Below, piece by piece: positions 16,189 through 25,611 of a stretch of DNA of 64,000 bases. The first letter of the stretch is position 1. Each line of letters starts with the position of its first letter. The notes beneath the pieces were generated by a model that worked only from the letters and a program-made list of their open reading frames with translations, was not told the origin of the DNA and did not search any database. The DNA comes from Methylovorus glucosotrophus (GTDB lineage: Bacteria; Pseudomonadota; Gammaproteobacteria; Burkholderiales; Methylophilaceae), in contig NZ_VMSE01000001.1 in the NCBI RefSeq assembly GCF_009858335.1, positions 1,116,001-1,180,000 on the forward strand, read 5' to 3'. The translations under genes and the position numbers were made by a program.

Positions 16189-16629
16189 ATGGCCTTATTC
16201 AACCCCTCCCGCGATGAAGTCCGGCGTTTCTTTTTTGATAGCTGGGCCAAATATCGCCAGCAGGCAGCATTGACGCCGTTGGAGGCATTGGCGCTGCAAG
16301 TGATGCAGTTGCATCCGGAATACCATGCGGTGCTCGATGCGCCCGAGCGCTATCTGGAGCAGGCGTATTTTCCCGAAATGGGCGAAACCAATCCCTTTTT
16401 GCACATGAGTTTGCATTTATCGGTGCTGGAGCAGCTCTCCATCGACCAGCCGCCCGGCATACGCCTGGCCTATGAGACGCTCAGGCAACGTCACGGCAAT
16501 GAAATGGATGCGCAGCATGATCTGATGGACTGTCTGGCAGAAACCATCTGGCGGGCGCAACGCGATCAGCAGCCGCCGGACGGCATGGCCTATATCGCCT
16601 GTTTCCAGGCCAAGGCCAGGGCAGACTGA
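16189..16629 (+). CDS. DUF1841 family protein
   Basis: A 146-residue soluble protein matching the DUF1841 pattern: FNPSRDEVRRFFFDSW at the N-terminus, HPEYHAVLD and the ETNPFLHMSLHLSVLEQL segment rich in conserved His. The family is common in beta- and gammaproteobacteria and has no known function. It follows the FIST gene by two bases, so it is co-transcribed with nth. Confidence 0.8.
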   Translation: MALFNPSRDEVRRFFFDSWAKYRQQAALTPLEALALQVMQLHPEYHAVLDAPERYLEQAYFPEMGETNPFLHMSLHLSVLEQLSIDQPPGIRLAYETLRQRHGNEMDAQHDLMDCLAETIWRAQRDQQPPDGMAYIACFQAKARAD

Positions 16630-16714: not shown

Positions 16715-16749
16715 TGGTGCAAACCCTGCATTTCGTGATTGAATAGCGC

Positions 16750-17313
16750 ATGAAAAAAACAGACCCCCATGCCTGGCTTGCCGAACACGGTGATTATCTT
16801 TACCGCTTCGCCCTGGCGCGCTTGCGCGATACCCATCAGGCGGAAGATGTGGTGCAAGAAACCTTGCTGGCCGCCATGCAGAGCGCCAGCTATGCCGGGC
16901 AATCGGCTCCCCGCACCTGGCTGGTGGGCATACTCAAGCACAAGATTATTGATCTGATTCGCAAGCAAATGCGCGAGCAACCAGTGGAAGGGTTGGGAGA
17001 GGATTTGCCCGATGAGCCAGGCATGGATGAGTTTTTTGACGAGGACAACCGTCACTGGAACGACAAACCCCAGAGTTTTGGCATGCCGGAAAACAGCCTG
17101 GAGCAAAAGCAGTTCTTGACGATTTTGCAGGACTGCATGGATCGCTTACCCAAAAAACTGGCGGCACTTTTCATGCTGCGCGAAGTGCAGGAAGAAGAAA
17201 ACGAAATAATTTGTAAGGAACTGGATATTAGCTCGACCAATGCTTGGGTGATGTTGTATCGCGCCCGAATGGGATTACGCAAATGTCTTGAACTGCACTG
17301 GTTGGGGCGCTAG
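16750..17313 (+). CDS. ECF-type RNA polymerase sigma factor
   Basis: A 187-residue sigma-70 family factor with region 2 (YLYRFALARLRD, then AEDVVQETLLAAM at about residues 33-45, and RTWLVGILKHKIIDLIRK) and region 4 (about residues 125-180, with the recognition helix near STNAWVMLYRAR). An acidic linker of about 40 residues rich in Asp and Glu separates the two. It is followed by a small zinc-finger protein and the HvfABC-type genes, so it likely controls this operon, as ECF factors do for related copper-stress RiPP clusters. The signal is unknown. Confidence 0.85.
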   Translation: MKKTDPHAWLAEHGDYLYRFALARLRDTHQAEDVVQETLLAAMQSASYAGQSAPRTWLVGILKHKIIDLIRKQMREQPVEGLGEDLPDEPGMDEFFDEDNRHWNDKPQSFGMPENSLEQKQFLTILQDCMDRLPKKLAALFMLREVQEEENEIICKELDISSTNAWVMLYRARMGLRKCLELHWLGR

Positions 17314-17357
17314 AAAATGAGCGCTTGTTACCTGAATAGAGGAAAGGGAGGAGCGGT

Positions 17358-17609
17358 ATGCTGAGTTGCAAACAAGCCAGCAGGCTGTTGTCCCAGTCGC
17401 TGGACAGGCGTCTGACGTGGCGTGAACGGACTGCGCTGCGTCTGCATTTGACGATATGCGATGTGTGCAGGCGGTTTGGGCGGCAATTGTTACTGCTGCG
17501 TGAAGCTGCCAAACGCATGGTCAGGCTGACCGAGCAGAATGAGACCCTGCAGTTATCCCAGGAGGCGAAGGCGCGTATTGCCAGTGCTCTTGATCTTGAG
17601 CGTCAGTGA
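17358..17609 (+). CDS. small zinc-finger (zf-HC2-like) anti-sigma-type protein
   Basis: An 83-residue cytoplasmic protein. An N-terminal Cys4 plus the motif His30-x3-Cys34-x2-Cys37 match the zinc-binding anti-sigma (ZAS, zf-HC2) pattern; no membrane segment is present. It directly follows the ECF sigma gene with a strong GGGAGGAG ribosome site, so it is the likely regulator of that factor. Because it is soluble, it may sense metal or redox state directly through its Cys residues; this is inference. Confidence 0.75.
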   Translation: MLSCKQASRLLSQSLDRRLTWRERTALRLHLTICDVCRRFGRQLLLLREAAKRMVRLTEQNETLQLSQEAKARIASALDLERQ

Positions 17610-17693
17610 TTTAATGCTGGATTGATGCGCAGGACATGGGGCTGATGCTATTCACTAGTTGAGCTATCCACTTAAATTTTAGGAGAAATAAAA

Positions 17694-18026
17694 ATGAACA
17701 CTTCCAAGAAAACCCTGAGCCTGATGGTCGGTACTGCATTCGTTGCTTCCATGGCGGCCGCCAATGTCCACGCTGCTGAAAATCCGTTTGCCATGAAGAC
17801 CCTGTCTTCCGGCTACATGGTGGCAGAGGCCGACAAGATGAAAGACGGCAAGTGTGGCACGGGCAAGTGCAGTGCTGAAATGAAAGCCAAGATGGCCAAG
17901 GAAGGCTCATGCAGCGCCGATAAAAAAGCCGAGGGTTCCTGCAGCGCTGACAAGAAAGCCAAAGAAGGTTCTTGCAGCGGTGACATGAAGTCCAAGGAAG
18001 GTTCCTGCCACGCCGACAAGAAGTAA
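17694..18026 (+). CDS. hvfA: HvfA/bufferin-type Cys-rich RiPP precursor
   Basis: A 110-residue exported precursor peptide. Residues 1-27 form a signal peptide ending in VHA, then a leader-like segment with LSSGYMVAEAD, and a Lys/Glu/Ser-rich core with six Cys: Cys54 and Cys59 in GKC motifs and Cys73, Cys83, Cys94 and Cys105 in EGSC motifs. Precursors of the HvfA family carry EGKC repeats whose Cys are converted by an MNIO enzyme into heterocycle-containing copper-binding sites. Here four of six motifs are EGSC. The gene has an AGGAGA site and is followed after one base by hvfB. Copper buffering in the periplasm is the expected role but is not shown by the sequence. Confidence 0.8.
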   Translation: MNTSKKTLSLMVGTAFVASMAAANVHAAENPFAMKTLSSGYMVAEADKMKDGKCGTGKCSAEMKAKMAKEGSCSADKKAEGSCSADKKAKEGSCSGDMKSKEGSCHADKK

Positions 18027-18027
18027 T

Positions 18028-18930
18028 ATGGAACAGGCGCAATCGCATCATCCCATCAAGGGGGCGGGTCTGGGCCTTAAGCGTGAGCTGTTGCCGCAGA
18101 TTCAGGCAGCTTACGGCACCAGCCTGACCGCTCACCTTGATTTTGTTGAGATTGCGCCTGAAAACTGGATAGGCGCCGGTGGCAAATATGCCAAGCAATT
18201 GGCCTGGTTCACCGAGCGCTATCCCATCGTTTGTCATGGATTGTGCCTGTCGCTGGGCGGGCCGGATCCACTGAATGAAGATTTTCTGCATCAGGTAAAA
18301 CAGTTTCTCGATCAGCACCAGATTCCGCTTTATACCGAGCATTTAAGCTATTGTACCGATGGTGGCTATTTGTATGATCTGCTGCCTATCCCCTTTACCG
18401 AAGAGGCCGTGCACCATGTGGCTGCGCGTATCCGCCGCACGCAGGATATTCTGGAGCGGCGCATTGCGGTAGAAAATGCCTCGTTTTATGTGGCTTCGCC
18501 CATCGCCGAAATGGATGAGGCCAGCTTCATCCGTGCCGTGTTGCAGGAGGCGGATTGCGATTTGCACCTCGATCTAAACAATATCTACGTCAACAGTGTC
18601 AACTTTGGTTTCGATCCGCATGCGTTTCTGCGTGAAATGCCGGGCGAACGTATCGTCTATGCGCATATCGCCGGGCATGATCACGAGGCTGAAGACCTGA
18701 TTATCGATACCCATGGACAGGATGTGATTGATCCTGTCTGGCAGTTGCTGCGCGAGGCTTATGCGATGTTTGGTGTTTTCCCCACCTTGCTGGAGCGCGA
18801 TACCAATATTCCGCCGCTAGCGGAGGCCATGCGCGAGGTGAATAAAATTGCCGATTTGCAAATGGCGCAGCAAGCTATTGCCAGACAGCAACCAGCGGAT
18901 GCCGTCAGCCGCAAACGGGTGTCCGCATGA
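18028..18930 (+). CDS. hvfB: MNIO-family (DUF692) RiPP maturase, HvfB/BufB-like
   Basis: A 300-residue TIM-barrel protein of the multinuclear non-heme iron oxidase family (formerly DUF692). Clustered conserved acidic and His residues that bind two or three irons are visible: VEIAPENW, CHGLCLSLG, YTEHLSYC, AVENASFY, LDLNNIYVN, HIAGHDHE and LLERDTNIP. These enzymes oxidise Cys of the precursor into oxazolone/thioamide or thiooxazole groups. It starts one base after the precursor and overlaps the partner gene by four bases, so all three are translationally coupled. Confidence 0.9.
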   Translation: MEQAQSHHPIKGAGLGLKRELLPQIQAAYGTSLTAHLDFVEIAPENWIGAGGKYAKQLAWFTERYPIVCHGLCLSLGGPDPLNEDFLHQVKQFLDQHQIPLYTEHLSYCTDGGYLYDLLPIPFTEEAVHHVAARIRRTQDILERRIAVENASFYVASPIAEMDEASFIRAVLQEADCDLHLDLNNIYVNSVNFGFDPHAFLREMPGERIVYAHIAGHDHEAEDLIIDTHGQDVIDPVWQLLREAYAMFGVFPTLLERDTNIPPLAEAMREVNKIADLQMAQQAIARQQPADAVSRKRVSA

Positions 18931-19715
18931 GCGGGGCTGATACTGATTTGCCCTTGTTTCAGCAATATCAGCTGGCATTCACCGCGCATATTCGCCATCC
19001 GCGTCAGCATGCCCGCCCGGCAGGAGTGCAGGCCAAGCGCATGCGCGTCTATAACGAAATCGTATTCAATAACCTGCAGTCTGCCGTTGGCGCCTGTTAT
19101 CCGGTTTTGCAGCGAGTGTTGGGCAAGCGTGCCTGGCAGGCGCTGCTGCGCCGGTTTTTTGCCGAGCATCAGGCGAGCAGCCCTTTTTTTCGGGATATTC
19201 CCCAGGCCTTTCTGGAATTTTTACCGCAGGTAGCAACATTGCCGCCTTACGCCGTCAGTCTCGCGCATTATGAATGGGTAGAACTGGCGATTGCTTCGGC
19301 GCCAGCAGAAGCGCCAGAGCTGGCTGAGGAGGGCGATTTGTTGCTGGGCGTGCCCGTTCTGGCGCCGGCGTTGGCGCTGCTGGCCTATGATTATCCAGTG
19401 CAGCAGATTTCAGTCCGTTACAAGCCGCGTCAGGCCTTGCCTGAGCCTGTGCATCTGCTGGTGTTTCGCAACCAGCTGGATGAGGTGAAATTTGTCGAGA
19501 TGAATGCCATGACGGCGCGCCTGCTGGCGCTATTGCAAGCGGGTGAGCTGACGGGCAGCGCCGCCTTGCAACAATTGGGCATGGAGATGGGGCATGCGGA
19601 TCCTGATTCCCTGATGCGCTTTGGCGGGGCACTGCTGGAAGAGTTGCGCCAGCAGGATATCGTCTGGGGCATTGCGGTTAGCGACGATGCTGGTATCAGG
19701 CCCGACGCATCCTGA
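18927..19715 (+). CDS. hvfC: HvfC/BufC-type partner protein (DUF2063 N-terminal domain)
   Basis: A 262-residue protein of the DNA-binding-domain-like DUF2063 family, the usual partner of MNIO maturases. The N-terminal half carries the family pattern RMRVYNEIVFNNLQSAV and ACYPVLQRVLG, and FFRDIPQAFLEF. It probably recruits the precursor leader to HvfB; it is not expected to be catalytic. Its ATG overlaps the hvfB stop (ATGA). It ends the operon, convergent with a small minus-strand gene. Confidence 0.85.
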   Translation: MSGADTDLPLFQQYQLAFTAHIRHPRQHARPAGVQAKRMRVYNEIVFNNLQSAVGACYPVLQRVLGKRAWQALLRRFFAEHQASSPFFRDIPQAFLEFLPQVATLPPYAVSLAHYEWVELAIASAPAEAPELAEEGDLLLGVPVLAPALALLAYDYPVQQISVRYKPRQALPEPVHLLVFRNQLDEVKFVEMNAMTARLLALLQAGELTGSAALQQLGMEMGHADPDSLMRFGGALLEELRQQDIVWGIAVSDDAGIRPDAS

Positions 19716-21833: not shown

Positions 21834-22547
21834 ATGATTAATGCAAAAAATATGGGAGAATTTTCGCGCCTCGGTTTCGTAGACACTACGATGCAAGGGT
21901 ATACTCCGAAAATTAACAATATGCAGACAGGGAGCGCTGGCCCCATGGTGGGCAACCGGGAGATAGATCAGGAATTGGTTGAGCGTGCTCAGCGCGGCGA
22001 CAAGCGCGCCTTTGGCATGCTGGTGGACAAATACCAGCGCAAGCTGGGACGTTTATTGTCCAGACTGATTCGTGACCAGGCCGAGGTTGAGGACGTGGTA
22101 CAAGAGTCCTTCATCAAGGCCTATCGTGCCTTGCCTAACTTCCGGGGTGAAAGTGCGTTCTACACTTGGTTGTATCGTATTGGCATCAACACCGCCAAGA
22201 ATTATCTGGTGGCCATGGGCCGTCGTCCACAGGTATCCAACGACATCGAAATCGAAGATGCAGAAAACTTCGAGGACGGTAACGAGTTGCGTACCATGGA
22301 CACGCCTGAAACAGAGTTAATGACCAAGGAAATCGCCCGTACCGTCAACGATACCGTTGCGGCACTTCCTGATGAATTACGGACGGCGATTACCCTGCGC
22401 GAAATCGAAGGTTTGAGCTACGAGGAAATCGCGACCCTGATGAACTGCCCGATTGGTACGGTGCGTTCACGTATTTTCAGGGCTCGTGAAACCATTGCGC
22501 AGAAACTGCGCCCGCTGCTGGATACGCCTCAGGACAAGCGCTGGTAA
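21834..22547 (+). CDS. rpoE: RNA polymerase sigma factor RpoE (AlgU)
   Basis: The sigma factor of the envelope stress response. Region 2 holds ERAQRGDKRAFGMLVDKYQ and the EDVVQESFIKAYRAL helix; region 4 holds TLREIEGLSYEEIATLMNCPIGTVRSRIFRAR. The ATG at 21834 has a GGGAG site seven bases upstream and lies just after a sigma-E-like promoter, giving 237 residues with an unusual 37-residue N-terminal extension. The ATG at 21945 (GGGAG ten bases upstream) would give 200 residues, the normal family length. Either or both may be used. It heads the operon with rseA and rseB. Confidence 0.9.
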   Translation: MINAKNMGEFSRLGFVDTTMQGYTPKINNMQTGSAGPMVGNREIDQELVERAQRGDKRAFGMLVDKYQRKLGRLLSRLIRDQAEVEDVVQESFIKAYRALPNFRGESAFYTWLYRIGINTAKNYLVAMGRRPQVSNDIEIEDAENFEDGNELRTMDTPETELMTKEIARTVNDTVAALPDELRTAITLREIEGLSYEEIATLMNCPIGTVRSRIFRARETIAQKLRPLLDTPQDKRW

Positions 22548-22563
22548 GTAACAGGAGAAAGTA

Positions 22564-23019
22564 ATGAAAGATCAAGTTTCTGCTCTCGTTGACGAAGAGC
22601 TGTCTCTGGAAGACTCCGAGTATCTATACACGGCCATTCGGTCCAGCGAAACCCTGTCCGATTCCTGGACCACATACCACCTGATTGGGGATTGCATGCG
22701 TGGCAGTCCCATTTTCAAGGCGGATTTGACCGATCGCATCATGCAGCAACTGGAACAGGAGCCGGTGGTACTGGCTCCCAAGGCCAAAAAAGCGGTCTAC
22801 AAGACGCCTACACTCTGGTCGGTCGCTGCTTCGGTGGCTGCCGTCATGTTTGTCGGCTGGATGGTATTGCAACAACAGGTGCAAACACACGGCGAAGCTG
22901 CACCTGCCGAAATCGCACAGAATGTCGCCTCCGAGTATCTGCTGGCCCATCAGTCCATGGCCCCAAGCAACTCCGCTTATTACATTCAGCCTGCGTCTTA
23001 CTCTGAAAGCGAGAAGTAA
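22564..23019 (+). CDS. rseA: anti-sigma-E factor RseA (MucA-like)
   Basis: A 151-residue single-span membrane protein. The N-terminal cytoplasmic domain (about residues 1-75, beginning KDQVSALVDEELS) binds sigma-E; one membrane helix follows (about 81-100, SVAASVAAVMFVGWMVL), then a short periplasmic domain that RseB would guard. It follows rpoE by 16 bases and its stop overlaps the rseB start by one base. Regulated proteolysis of this protein should release sigma-E on envelope stress; this is known for the family. Confidence 0.9.
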   Translation: MKDQVSALVDEELSLEDSEYLYTAIRSSETLSDSWTTYHLIGDCMRGSPIFKADLTDRIMQQLEQEPVVLAPKAKKAVYKTPTLWSVAASVAAVMFVGWMVLQQQVQTHGEAAPAEIAQNVASEYLLAHQSMAPSNSAYYIQPASYSESEK

Positions 23020-23987
23020 TGAAGCGTGGGGTGCTGGGTTTTTTGCTTGTCAGCCATGTTGCGCTTGCAACAGCGGCGGGAGAAGCCACTGGTGACCCCT
23101 GGATGGTCTTGCAAAAGGCAGCTCAGGCTGCCCGCGAGCTGAGTTATCAAGGCGTATTTGTTTATCAGTCTGGCACTGGTTCACGCTCGGTACAGATCAC
23201 CCACATGAATTACGGGCAGGGCGAGTATGCCCGCATTGTGGTGCTGGATGGCACTCCGCGCGAGGTATTGAGCCAGGGCCGCGATGTGGTGATTTTCAGC
23301 CCACGCAATGAGAAAGTTGTCATCGAAAAGCGCCGGGGGCAGAATATGTTCCCCGCCGTTTTGCCGTCCAACCTGGATGCGATCAAGTCCAGCTATGACG
23401 TCAAGTTTGGCGGCACGGAGCGTATAGGTGGGCGGGATGGCCAAATGGTGATTCTCTCCCCCAAGGATAAATTCCGTTATACCTACAAGTTCTGGGCAGA
23501 CCGTGAATATGGCCTGCTCCTGAAATCGATGTCAGCGAACGAACGCAACGAGCCTATGGAGCAATTTGCGTTCAACCAGCTGACCTTGATGAATAGCCAG
23601 AAAATGGACTGGTTTCAACCTAATGTCAGTCCGGAAAAGCAGTATGTCATGGAAGAATCCGGGGCGGGCCGCTCCGAACCGGTCGAGGCTATTACCTGGA
23701 CGGTAGAACAGCTTCCTTCTGGTTACCGGAAGGTCGACGAAATCACACGCCTGGTCCCAGGCAAGCCAGCACCCGTTACCCAGATCGTCTATTCCGATGG
23801 TCTTGCGTCCGTGTCGCTGTTTATCGAGCCTTTGCTCAAAGGCATGGCACCCAAAGTCGGGCATAGCGCTTTTGGCGCCACCCATTTCTATGCCAATGTC
23901 CTTGAGGGACACCAGGTTGTGGTGGTGGGGGAAGTCCCCGAAGCTACCGTAACCCAGATCGCCAACACCATTCATTTCAAGAAATAA
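23019..23987 (+). CDS. rseB: sigma-E regulatory protein RseB (MucB-like)
   Basis: A 322-residue periplasmic protein with a signal peptide (cleavage likely near TAAG) and the two MucB/RseB domains: an N-terminal LolA-like lipid or peptide-sensing domain (with SYQGVFVYQSG and FSPRNEKVVIEKRRGQ) and a smaller C-terminal domain (VSLFIEPLL, GATHFYANVLEGHQVVVVGEVP). It binds RseA and delays its cleavage. Start and rseA stop overlap (TAATG), so translation is coupled. Confidence 0.9.
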   Translation: MKRGVLGFLLVSHVALATAAGEATGDPWMVLQKAAQAARELSYQGVFVYQSGTGSRSVQITHMNYGQGEYARIVVLDGTPREVLSQGRDVVIFSPRNEKVVIEKRRGQNMFPAVLPSNLDAIKSSYDVKFGGTERIGGRDGQMVILSPKDKFRYTYKFWADREYGLLLKSMSANERNEPMEQFAFNQLTLMNSQKMDWFQPNVSPEKQYVMEESGAGRSEPVEAITWTVEQLPSGYRKVDEITRLVPGKPAPVTQIVYSDGLASVSLFIEPLLKGMAPKVGHSAFGATHFYANVLEGHQVVVVGEVPEATVTQIANTIHFKK

Positions 23988-24096
23988 CTCCCGTATGGAT
24001 TTTCCTTGCAGCATGCAGTGCCAGCGCGGCAACGCGTGTTGCTGCCATGCTGCTTATCCATGCGTGATCGATGCATCTTTATCTAGTGTTATTAGG

Positions 24097-24125
24097 GGAA
24101 CAGGCATGACGGCGCGATGTCTTCA
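24097..24125 (+). promoter_or_regulatory. putative sigma-E promoter of the degP-type gene
   Basis: GGAACAG at 24097-24103 and TCTTC at 24120-24124 with a 16-base spacer mirror the element before rpoE; both share GTCTTCAAC at the -10. The start of transcription would be near 24131, about 60 bases before the ATG. Confidence 0.45.
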
Positions 24126-24146
24126 ACCATACGTGGCTCATGCCTG
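24101..24146. other. 9-bp inverted repeat flanking the degP promoter -10
   Basis: CAGGCATGA at 24101-24109 is repeated in inverted form at 24138-24146, 28 bases apart, embracing the putative -10. It may be a regulator site or fold in the early transcript. Confidence 0.35.
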
Positions 24147-24189
24147 AGGTATGACTGTCATTTAACCGATGTATGAATGAGGTGTATGC

Positions 24190-25611
24190 ATGCTTAAAAA
24201 ATTAATCGCCACTTGCGCGATCCTTATTACAGTGTCAGGAACTGCGTCGGCCAAGGATTTGCCCGACTTTACCGAGCTGGCGGAAAAGCAGGGGCCGGCG
24301 GTGGTCAATATCAGTATCACGCAGGTGATGCATGGCCAGGCAGAAGGCACGGTGCCATTTCCCGGCATGCCGGATGATCCGGCGCTGGGCGAATTTTTGC
24401 GTCGCTTCGGCATCCCCGGCATGCCAGGCCAGGGTAACGGCGCTCCGCAACAGGATTACAAATCGCAGTCGCTGGGTTCGGGCTTCATCATCAGCAATGA
24501 TGGTTATATCCTGACCAATGCGCATGTGGTTAATGAAGCCGACGAAGTGCTGGTGAAGTTGTCCGACAAGCGCGAATTCAAGGCCAAGATCATAGGCTCT
24601 GACCGTCGTACCGATGTAGCACTGATCAAGATTGATGCGACCAACCTGCCCAAGGTGACCATCGGCGACCCCAATCAGCTGAAGGTTGGCGAATGGGTAG
24701 CGGCCATCGGCTCACCGTTCGGTCTGGAAAACACCATGACTGCCGGTATCGTCAGCGCCAAGGGCCGTGCCTTGCCGCAGGAAAACTTTGTTCCTTTCAT
24801 TCAGACCGACGTGGCAATCAACCCAGGTAACTCGGGAGGTCCGCTGTTCAATCTGCGTGGCGAAGTGGTGGGCATCAATTCCCAGATATACAGCCGTAGC
24901 GGTGGCTCCATGGGCCTGTCATTCTCCATCCCGATTGATGTGGCGATCGATGTGTCCAACCAACTGAAAGCCAACGGCAAGGTGACCCGTGGCTGGCTGG
25001 GTATCGGCATTCAGGAAATCACCAAGGATCTGGCAGATTCATTCGGCATGAAGAGCACCAACGGTGCGCTGGTTGCGGGTGTGGAAAAAGGCGCTCCTGC
25101 AGAGAAGGGGGGTCTGGAAGCGGGCGATGTCATCGTCAAGTTTGATGGCAAACCTGTACTGACTTCCTCTGACCTGCCGCGTATTGTTGGCGCTACCAAA
25201 CCTGGCAAAACCGTGCCGGTAGAAGTCTTGCGCAAGGGTAGCACCAAGACCCTCAACATCACCGTGGGCGAAGCACCTACTGAGAAAGATGGCGTTGCGC
25301 CAACGCCCAAAGGCTCGGCCAAACCAGAAGTGAACCGTCTTGGCCTGGTGTTGCGCGAGCTGACGCCAGTGCAGAAGCGCAAACTCAGTGGCAAGAATGG
25401 CCTGCTGGTGGTAGATGCGCAGGGCGCTGCTGCTCAGGCAGGCATACGCCGTGGCGATGTGGTGCTTGGTCTTAACAACACCGAAGTGCAGAGCCTGGAG
25501 CAGTTCAACAAGCAACTCGCTGGTGTCGCTAGTGGTAAAACCGTGGCCTTGCTGGTACAGCGCGATGACAACACCTTGTATGTACCATTGAAGCTCGCTG
25601 CGGATAAATAG
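24190..25611 (+). CDS. mucD: periplasmic serine protease of the DegP/DegQ (MucD) family
   Basis: A 473-residue HtrA protease and chaperone for misfolded envelope proteins. It has a signal peptide (cleavage near ASA at 19-21), the trypsin-like domain with catalytic His112 (TNAHVV), Asp142 (RTDVALIKI) and Ser215 (NPGNSGGP), and two PDZ domains (about residues 275-375 and 385-470). The loop with Met/Pro/Gly-rich sequence (about 48-85) is the flexible LA loop. The position behind rpoE-rseA-rseB matches algU-mucA-mucB-mucD of Pseudomonas. It has its own promoter and a GAGG ribosome site, and a strong terminator follows. Confidence 0.92.
   Translation: MLKKLIATCAILITVSGTASAKDLPDFTELAEKQGPAVVNISITQVMHGQAEGTVPFPGMPDDPALGEFLRRFGIPGMPGQGNGAPQQDYKSQSLGSGFIISNDGYILTNAHVVNEADEVLVKLSDKREFKAKIIGSDRRTDVALIKIDATNLPKVTIGDPNQLKVGEWVAAIGSPFGLENTMTAGIVSAKGRALPQENFVPFIQTDVAINPGNSGGPLFNLRGEVVGINSQIYSRSGGSMGLSFSIPIDVAIDVSNQLKANGKVTRGWLGIGIQEITKDLADSFGMKSTNGALVAGVEKGAPAEKGGLEAGDVIVKFDGKPVLTSSDLPRIVGATKPGKTVPVEVLRKGSTKTLNITVGEAPTEKDGVAPTPKGSAKPEVNRLGLVLRELTPVQKRKLSGKNGLLVVDAQGAAAQAGIRRGDVVLGLNNTEVQSLEQFNKQLAGVASGKTVALLVQRDDNTLYVPLKLAADK

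Follow-up and report, generated by a model that had tools for sequence, protein, structure and literature searches.

We describe here a five-gene cluster of Methylovorus glucosotrophus (Methylophilaceae), encoded on the + strand of a window of 64,000 nt (positions 1,116,001-1,180,000 of the forward strand of NZ_VMSE01000001.1, GCF_009858335.1; coordinates below are those of the window), together with a promoter-like element that lies inside its first gene and recurs elsewhere in the genome. The cluster opens with an extracytoplasmic function (ECF) sigma factor of the TIGR02943 family (16750-17313; NCBIfam TIGR02943 at 206.6 bits against a cut-off of 162.2, with Pfam Sigma70_r2 and r4_2 matches), followed by a soluble zinc-binding anti-sigma factor of 83 amino acids that resembles MseR, HrsE and RsrA (17358-17609; NF052368 at 73 bits against 50, Pfam zf-HC2 at 35 against 22.2), a secreted cysteine-rich precursor of 110 amino acids (17694-18026; recognized from its sequence and an alignment of relatives), an HvfB-type MNIO (DUF692) maturase (18028-18930; NF003818 HvfB at 414.5 bits against 360, PF05114 at 351 against 25) and an HvfC/PME1 partner with DUF2063 and an NGO1945 C-terminal domain (18927-19715; NF050145 HvfC at 273.5 bits against 142). 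The element, TGTAAGG-N15-CGACCAA, occupies 17212-17240 on the same strand and is a predicted sigma-type promoter, as judged by pattern scanning, codon-level conservation and its likeness to the sigmaE promoter of Neisseria. The nearest named loci by MNIO protein belong to M. mays and M. menthalis (95% identity). A preliminary description of this DNA had placed the five genes at these coordinates with gaps of 44, 84, 1 and -4 nt, which our recomputation reproduces, and its calls of an ECF sigma factor with a soluble zinc-binding anti-sigma and of an MNIO domain are borne out by the curated models above.

The anti-sigma protein carries the zinc motif C4-x25-H30-x3-C34-x2-C37, preserved in 69 of 71 Methylophilaceae proteins, and its sequence reads without a hydrophobic stretch and hence without a membrane segment; solved structures gave no match to it at E ≤ 1. 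By analogy it would be an MseR/HrsE-type zinc protein that holds the neighboring sigma inactive, and the earlier suggestion of cytoplasmic metal or redox sensing is a natural one, MseR and HrsE being proteins of the same kind. The label HvfABC/bufferin-type, also given earlier, survives in its first half, with HvfB and HvfC models over cut-off, and fails in its second, the BufB maturase model reaching 271.1 of 310 bits on the MNIO protein and DUF2282 finding no match. By these scores the cluster is captophorin/HvfABC-like, not bufferin. The precursor passes the cut-off of no curated family (NF050188 HvfA, 19.2 of 95 bits; KCGExKCG domain, 16.8 of 19.5), and up to E = 10 its sole Pfam entry is DUF7016 at E = 0.11, with no DUF2282 (BufA1). 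Among five relatives scanned, P0076 alone passes the KCGExKCG cut-off (24.5) and none passes that of HvfA. The layout is nevertheless distinctive: a signal peptide (read by eye), an AENPFAxKxLSSGYMVA segment conserved in an alignment of 16 precursors, then DGKCG-TGKCS, three EGSCS and one EGSCH, in repeats of about 10 residues that bring the cysteines to six. Relatives number 574 at E ≤ 0.001 among 830 candidates. PF05114 matches no other protein of the genome than the MNIO, which resembles PDB 3BWW (E = 2.4e-75) and has nine residues (H70, H105, E149, D182, N185, H213, D227, H229 and E256) that all 157 non-identical relatives share and that align with solved MNIO structures; we take them to be the MNIO iron site. 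Its partner matches the gonococcal partner, PDB 3DEE (E = 8.9e-12), and by analogy HvfBC would probably turn the precursor cysteines into 5-thiooxazoles.

The grouping of these genes is not a matter of chance, given the gene order shared across Methylophilaceae loci. In a set of 150 genomes of the family, 93 have an NF003818 match and 83 one over cut-off; 79 of these 83 HvfB loci were read (G042, G060, G069 and G100 were left out). Sigma and anti-sigma both lie upstream in 71 of the 79 and neither was matched in the other eight, one of which is cut by a contig end (L015) and another has an anti-sigma gene about 2 kb upstream of HvfB (L012). All five genes were found in 69 loci, every time in one order, two further loci had no HvfC match, and a precursor relative was found at all 79. 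With rows under the family cut-offs dropped, here and in the order-level sample, HvfB and the anti-sigma occur together in 75 of the 150 genomes, HvfB alone in eight, the anti-sigma alone in seven and neither in 60. Across a sample of 250 genomes of the order, 24 of 42 HvfB genes have a same-strand anti-sigma within 3 kb, upstream in 19 (three from Methylophilaceae) and downstream, as in Neisseria, in five, all of one genus; 75 further named loci with unequal flanks (L036-L110) gave sigma and anti-sigma matches in four. The pairing of anti-sigma and HvfABC is common, not unique, and the Neisseria sigmaE operon is its published precedent (PMC2893595, PMC3240639; here and below, statements about cited papers follow their accessible parts).

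The pattern TGTAAGG-N15-CGACYAA was first seen upstream of msrP, and its sole copy in the window is the one among the region-4 codons of the sigma gene, upstream of the anti-sigma and precursor genes, with the -10 box ending 117 nt before the anti-sigma start. Among the 71 Methylophilaceae loci the in-sigma element is perfect in 62 and has one mismatch in eight; in the last, the sigma frame is broken and the boxes stand 14 nt apart. A scan of the 79 loci returned 76 matches to the true pattern, against zero to one for each of eight altered patterns (swapped, reversed or with other spacers). In 48 sigma genes under 85% identity to each other, the cysteine codon of the element is TGT and its lysine codon AAG in 48 of 48, overall lysine usage in the same genes being AAA 327 versus AAG 183; in addition, 47 of 48 have CG as the last two bases of the codon preceding Thr-Asn, although its residue varies between Ala, Thr, Pro and Ser. 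Codons 155-164 are the peak of synonymous conservation in the gene (excess 0.307, against a mean of 0.061 and a standard deviation of 0.068). Since wobble bases are fixed even where the residue changes, coding constraint does not explain the element. Its boxes resemble the Neisseria sigmaE consensus GTMAGBWTT-N12-13-CGTCTAAH (PMC2893595), in keeping with a predicted sigma-type promoter. The single operon of the preliminary description holds as to strand, order and gaps, but the five genes need not form one transcript, given the predicted promoter inside the sigma gene. We found no published account of the element, of the link between HvfX and MsrPQ, or of an embedded promoter of this sigma factor, in a search that took in few subscription journals; elsewhere, a sigV promoter has been placed inside the gene cabp (PMC13171946).

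At up to one mismatch, the M. glucosotrophus genome holds three sites, all perfect, in the sigma gene, before msrP and before hvfX; the reversed pattern gives none, and the genome's separate msrA and msrB genes are without the element. The hvfX site bears on a gap in the cluster, in which no DoxX gene was found. The idea that the genome has no DoxX at all proved wrong: it holds four PF07681 genes, one of which passes as HvfX (134.5 of 80 bits; the model is named Cu-binding RiPP maturation protein) and lies 3' of msrP (476 of 207) and msrQ (190.9 of 130), about 388 kb from the hvf cluster. On these matches the predicted DoxX/HvfX partner is relocated to an msrP-msrQ-hvfX cluster, not lost, and the link locates the missing DoxX gene. 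Across the family, 63 HvfX genes pass the cut-off in 61 genomes, 45 downstream of msrP, seven beside HvfB and 11 elsewhere or at contig ends. Of the 103 genomes with a strong msrP match, 65 have HvfB, and msrP and hvfX are linked in 43 of these, compared with 2 of the 38 that lack HvfB. This count drops 12 weaker msrP rows (E from 3e-30 to 1e-20; seven genomes) and, for an HvfX gene split in two (G012), its second part. In G023, a 75% complete genome without HvfB, an hvfX-like match under the cut-off stands beside msrP.

The same association is seen at the level of the element. Among the best 30 msrP matches, all 21 that come from genomes with anti-sigma plus HvfB have the element ahead of msrP at up to one mismatch, as do 2 of the 9 others; of the 18 among those 21 with hvfX in view, 13 have a separate copy before hvfX. 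In 13 genomes the pattern gave 42 matches at up to one mismatch and the reversed control 18; for the nine Methylophilaceae genomes among them the figures are 38 and 13. These nine contain 23 perfect sites: eight before the anti-sigma (seven inside sigma, one before a lone anti-sigma), five before msrP, four before hvfX, two before msrA or msrB-msrA, two before operons for cytochrome b561, a molybdopterin oxidoreductase and an MXKDX repeat protein, one before a periplasmic thioredoxin-DsbD pair and one before an EF-hand protein. The hvfX, msrA/B, MXKDX, thioredoxin-DsbD and EF-hand sites are blind with respect to how the pattern was defined. One promoter type is thus predicted for the sigma factor's own operon and for methionine sulfoxide reductase genes, as expected of a sigmaE/RpoE2-type regulon. 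The EF-hand protein of this list (L311:741-1294, genome G035) looks secreted and is encoded about 6 kb away from hvfX; precursors of this sort fused to EF-hands have been described (PMC12452194). Outside Methylophilaceae, 11 of 16 loci of the order with an upstream anti-sigma were read, and in nine, where sigma is in line, the in-sigma element is present if CGTC is also allowed in the -10 box: without mismatch in L233, L235, L239, L241 and L243, and as TGTCAGG in L234, L236, L237 and L242. Separately, L146 and L150 carry a paralogous sigma/anti-sigma pair without HvfB and with a perfect in-sigma element in its CGTCTAA form, so that embedding of the promoter may be a general trait of this group of sigma factors.

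From these observations we consider it probable that the captophorin cluster is under the control of its dedicated ECF sigma and zinc anti-sigma factors, and that the regulon adds msrP-msrQ and hvfX at a second locus. The gene families, the synteny and the promoter-like element, with its conservation among codons and its distribution over the genome, can be read in the sequence, whereas transcription, inducer, chemistry and copper are inferred. The small cytoplasmic zinc anti-sigma would keep sigma inactive until oxidation of, or metal attack on, its Zn(Cys)3His site frees it, the zinc site being the likely sensor because of the precedents of MseR, HrsE and RsrA (PMC2893595, PMC7907618). Freed sigma would initiate at TGTAAGG-N15-CGACYAA, driving anti-sigma, precursor, MNIO and partner from the promoter in its own gene, and msrP-msrQ and hvfX from the further copies. 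Sigma itself would be made from another promoter, the element having no copy before it. As the promoter lies 3' of the sigma start and has no copy before sigma, induction should raise the anti-sigma, peptide, enzymes, MsrPQ and HvfX, and not sigma, which would amount to negative feedback. The exported peptide, with copper as its presumed ligand, would bind copper or oxidant in the periplasm, MsrPQ would repair oxidized methionines and HvfX would support the peptide pathway. A wider reading, to which we give an even chance, is that captophorins are an arm of periplasmic defense against reactive-chlorine-like oxidants: a single zinc-anti-sigma regulon would make the thiooxazole peptide together with whichever methionine sulfoxide repair the genome has available (MsrPQ, MsrAB, MXKDX peptide, thioredoxin-DsbD), with a negative-feedback promoter for inhibitor and peptide kept within sigma codons across families of the order.

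The element itself could be explained in two other ways. It might arise incidentally from the C-K-E...T-N residues conserved in region 4 of sigma, which it does overlap, with the operon read through from upstream genes; in 58 of the 71 loci a DUF1841 gene (16189-16629 in the window) comes before sigma, and in 15 it runs into the sigma start. We regard this as very improbable in view of the fixed synonymous bases, including NCG where the residue is Ala, Thr, Pro or Ser, and of the identical element before msrP and hvfX. Six loci with another gene order (L230-L232, L059, L067 and L069; HvfX, precursor(s), MNIO, HvfC, sigma, anti-sigma in L231 and L232) point the same way: their sigma genes contain no in-sigma element, and four carry it before another gene or before sigma, L232 with one mismatch at N16 before HvfX, and L059, L067 and L069 with one or two mismatches before sigma or upstream of the precursor/MNIO genes (none was found at L231). 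Alternatively, the element might be the site of another regulator that the sigma and anti-sigma genes merely adjoin, and some genomes do retain hvfABC without sigma. The two-box structure with a constant 15-nt spacer and the close resemblance to the published sigmaE promoter of Neisseria leave this idea hardly credible, as does the way the element's presence before msrP tracks that of anti-sigma and HvfB among the best 30 msrP loci.

A response to copper excess concerns the signal and deserves more weight, although we find it doubtful. Here, copper or displaced zinc at the anti-sigma cysteines would be the signal, the captophorin would buffer periplasmic copper, and MsrPQ would be present because copper oxidizes methionine. 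Captophorins bind copper and related clusters respond to excess metal (PMC12668002), gig in Cupriavidus is copper-induced (PMC10304878), and the name of the HvfX model refers to copper. Among identified genes downstream of the 23 perfect sites, however, there is no copper exporter, copper oxidase or metallochaperone; apart from hvf, the anti-sigma and one EF-hand gene, they are methionine and cysteine redox genes, and hypochlorite is the stress linked to the nearest systems studied so far, RpoE2/HrsE and SigF/NrsF with MrpX (PMC7907618, PMC4623255). The predicted targets (MsrPQ here; MsrA/B, the MXKDX peptide and periplasmic thioredoxin in relatives) thus favor oxidant damage to methionine and cysteine at least as strongly as copper.

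Several points count against the sigma-dependent regulon that we propose. The pattern was first read by eye from regions upstream of msrP, and its copy in sigma had already been noticed when the scan was made; the reversed-pattern control matched in 10 of 12 other genomes; and kinship among genomes inflates the genome counts. Of the eight loci without a sigma match, seven carry no element within 500 bp before the precursor (one being cut by its contig), so HvfABC can live without sigma control. No same-strand anti-sigma lies within 3 kb of 18 of the 42 order-level HvfB genes, no element was found in L238 and L240, which have anti-sigma and hvfABC with a divergent sigma, and L036, a Methylococcaceae locus with the same gene order, has the element only with two mismatches. 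Finally, meningococcal sigmaE transcripts were unchanged by peroxide, diamide and singlet oxygen (PMC2893595), peroxide being cited as an inducer in Neisseria in another paper (PMC7907618).

The closest likeness is to the Neisseria sigmaE regulon, which comprises its own operon, holding gonophorin-type genes (PMC12668002), and msrA/msrB (PMC2893595, PMC3240639). That operon (NMB2140-2145/MseR; gonococcal NGO1948-1943, gonophorin) shares with the Methylovorus cluster an ECF sigma, a C4/H30/C34/C37 zinc anti-sigma, a DUF2063/MNIO pair and a DoxX gene, but its DoxX lies within the operon, whereas Methylovorus hvfX is at the second locus with msrPQ; sigma and anti-sigma end the operon in Neisseria and come first in Methylovorus, with the predicted promoter within the coding sequence of sigma; and MsrPQ replaces MsrAB. 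Haemophilus RpoE2/HrsE likewise has a small cytoplasmic zinc anti-sigma, its targets include periplasmic msrAB, and rpoE2 expression rises with hypochlorous acid (HOCl) and peroxide; the accessible part of the report names no captophorin cluster as a target (PMC7907618). Azospira SigF/NrsF-yedYZ (msrPQ)-MrpX and Brucella BcrS/AbcS-BcrXQP are ECF regulons that counter hypochlorite by means of MsrPQ and a methionine-rich MXKDX peptide, with other anti-sigmas (NrsF in Azospira) and no mention of an MNIO peptide in the accessible parts of those papers (PMC4623255, PMC8315932). Cupriavidus gigPABT/rpoQ-rsqA also places GigP, GigA, GigB (DUF2063) and the DoxX-like GigT beside an ECF sigma and anti-sigma and is copper-induced, but differs in its predicted membrane-bound anti-sigma, divergent arrangement and precursor type (PMC10304878). 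Oxazolin HvfABC of Haemophilus and fontiphorin FonABC are alike in HvfB and HvfC, which pass their cut-offs here, and in a secreted cysteine-rich precursor with a [DE]GKCG motif; the Methylovorus precursor differs in being built mainly of K-EGSC[SH]-A-D repeats, in which Cys is followed by Ser or His. Bufferins (BufABC) share the MNIO, DUF2063 partner and secreted precursor, and part from the Methylovorus cluster at BufB and DUF2282. The captophorin cluster and the MseR-type sigma system are known kinds; what is new is the embedded, codon-conserved predicted promoter and the predicted two-locus regulon with msrPQ-hvfX. It offers a clear candidate for a sigma-type promoter embedded and codon-preserved in the sigma's own gene, with the anti-sigma as first target. 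Further studies have been called for on the physiological role of captophorins and their DoxX partner (PMC12668002), and a precisely predicted promoter with a few-gene regulon makes that role testable, both as to the inducing signal and as to methionine protection, copper binding or both.

For the separate expression of sigma, the sequence TGATTGAAT (16736-16744, + strand), 5 nt 5' of the sigma ATG and without a Shine-Dalgarno sequence, may be a distinct promoter. In 32 of the 71 family loci its general form, TGnTTSAAT, is found 5-8 nt ahead of the start codon of sigma; none of the 32 has a Shine-Dalgarno sequence, and sigma may be translated from a leaderless mRNA. As a regulon signature the motif was rejected: TGNTTSAATN{5,8}ATG has 16 matches in the genome against about 11 by chance, a rough estimate (reversed control, 0), and 10 of the 16 ATGs begin open frames of at most 50 amino acids, so it is kept solely as a possible promoter of sigma. 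When the regions ahead of sigma were searched for motifs by Gibbs sampling, most of the output was coding sequence from the gene before it, and a scan for sigma70-type promoters found 3 against 4.0 expected.

Some features of the precursors bear on their modification. In 78 distinct Methylophilaceae precursors with 443 cysteines, the next residue is Gly in 225 cases, Ser in 158 and His in 36, and the preceding one Lys in 247 and Ser in 119. In a FonBC double-variant panel Ala alone was tolerated in place of Gly after Cys, and one Cys-Tyr motif was modified once (PMC12668002); set against that preference, the Ser and His found here suggest that HvfBC is more permissive or that only GKC sites are modified. 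The precursor start has a Shine-Dalgarno-like word ahead of it in 78 of 78 family loci and the MNIO start in only 5 of 79 (starts assigned by script), so the substrate is probably made in excess of the enzyme. At L237:2521-3294, two tandem precursor genes, one built of DAKCAADKKA-type decapeptides, stand ahead of one MNIO gene.

Sigma/anti-sigma pairs also occur apart from hvfABC. In L143 (G001) and L155 (G129) they lie beside DUF1841 with the in-sigma element intact and no adjoining hvfABC, and in L145 and L154 a second pair adjoins an HvfX gene away from HvfB. At L148:3387-6410, two anti-sigma-like genes are found in the neighborhood of a glutaredoxin-like gene and of two proteins that look secreted and abound in SPCSPC-type cysteine motifs. 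The DUF1841 gene also precedes the precursor in six of the eight sigma-less loci. Recruitment of different sigma lineages to HvfABC is not claimed: the tree is suggestive (approximately unbiased test, p = 0.040 and 0.047), with groups picked after viewing it. Further along the window, at 21834-25611, a second ECF sigma gene is followed by genes that look, by sequence and without a family scan, RseA-, RseB- and DegP-type-protease-like; the RseA-like anti-sigma appears to be of the membrane type, in contrast to the soluble anti-sigma of the hvf cluster.

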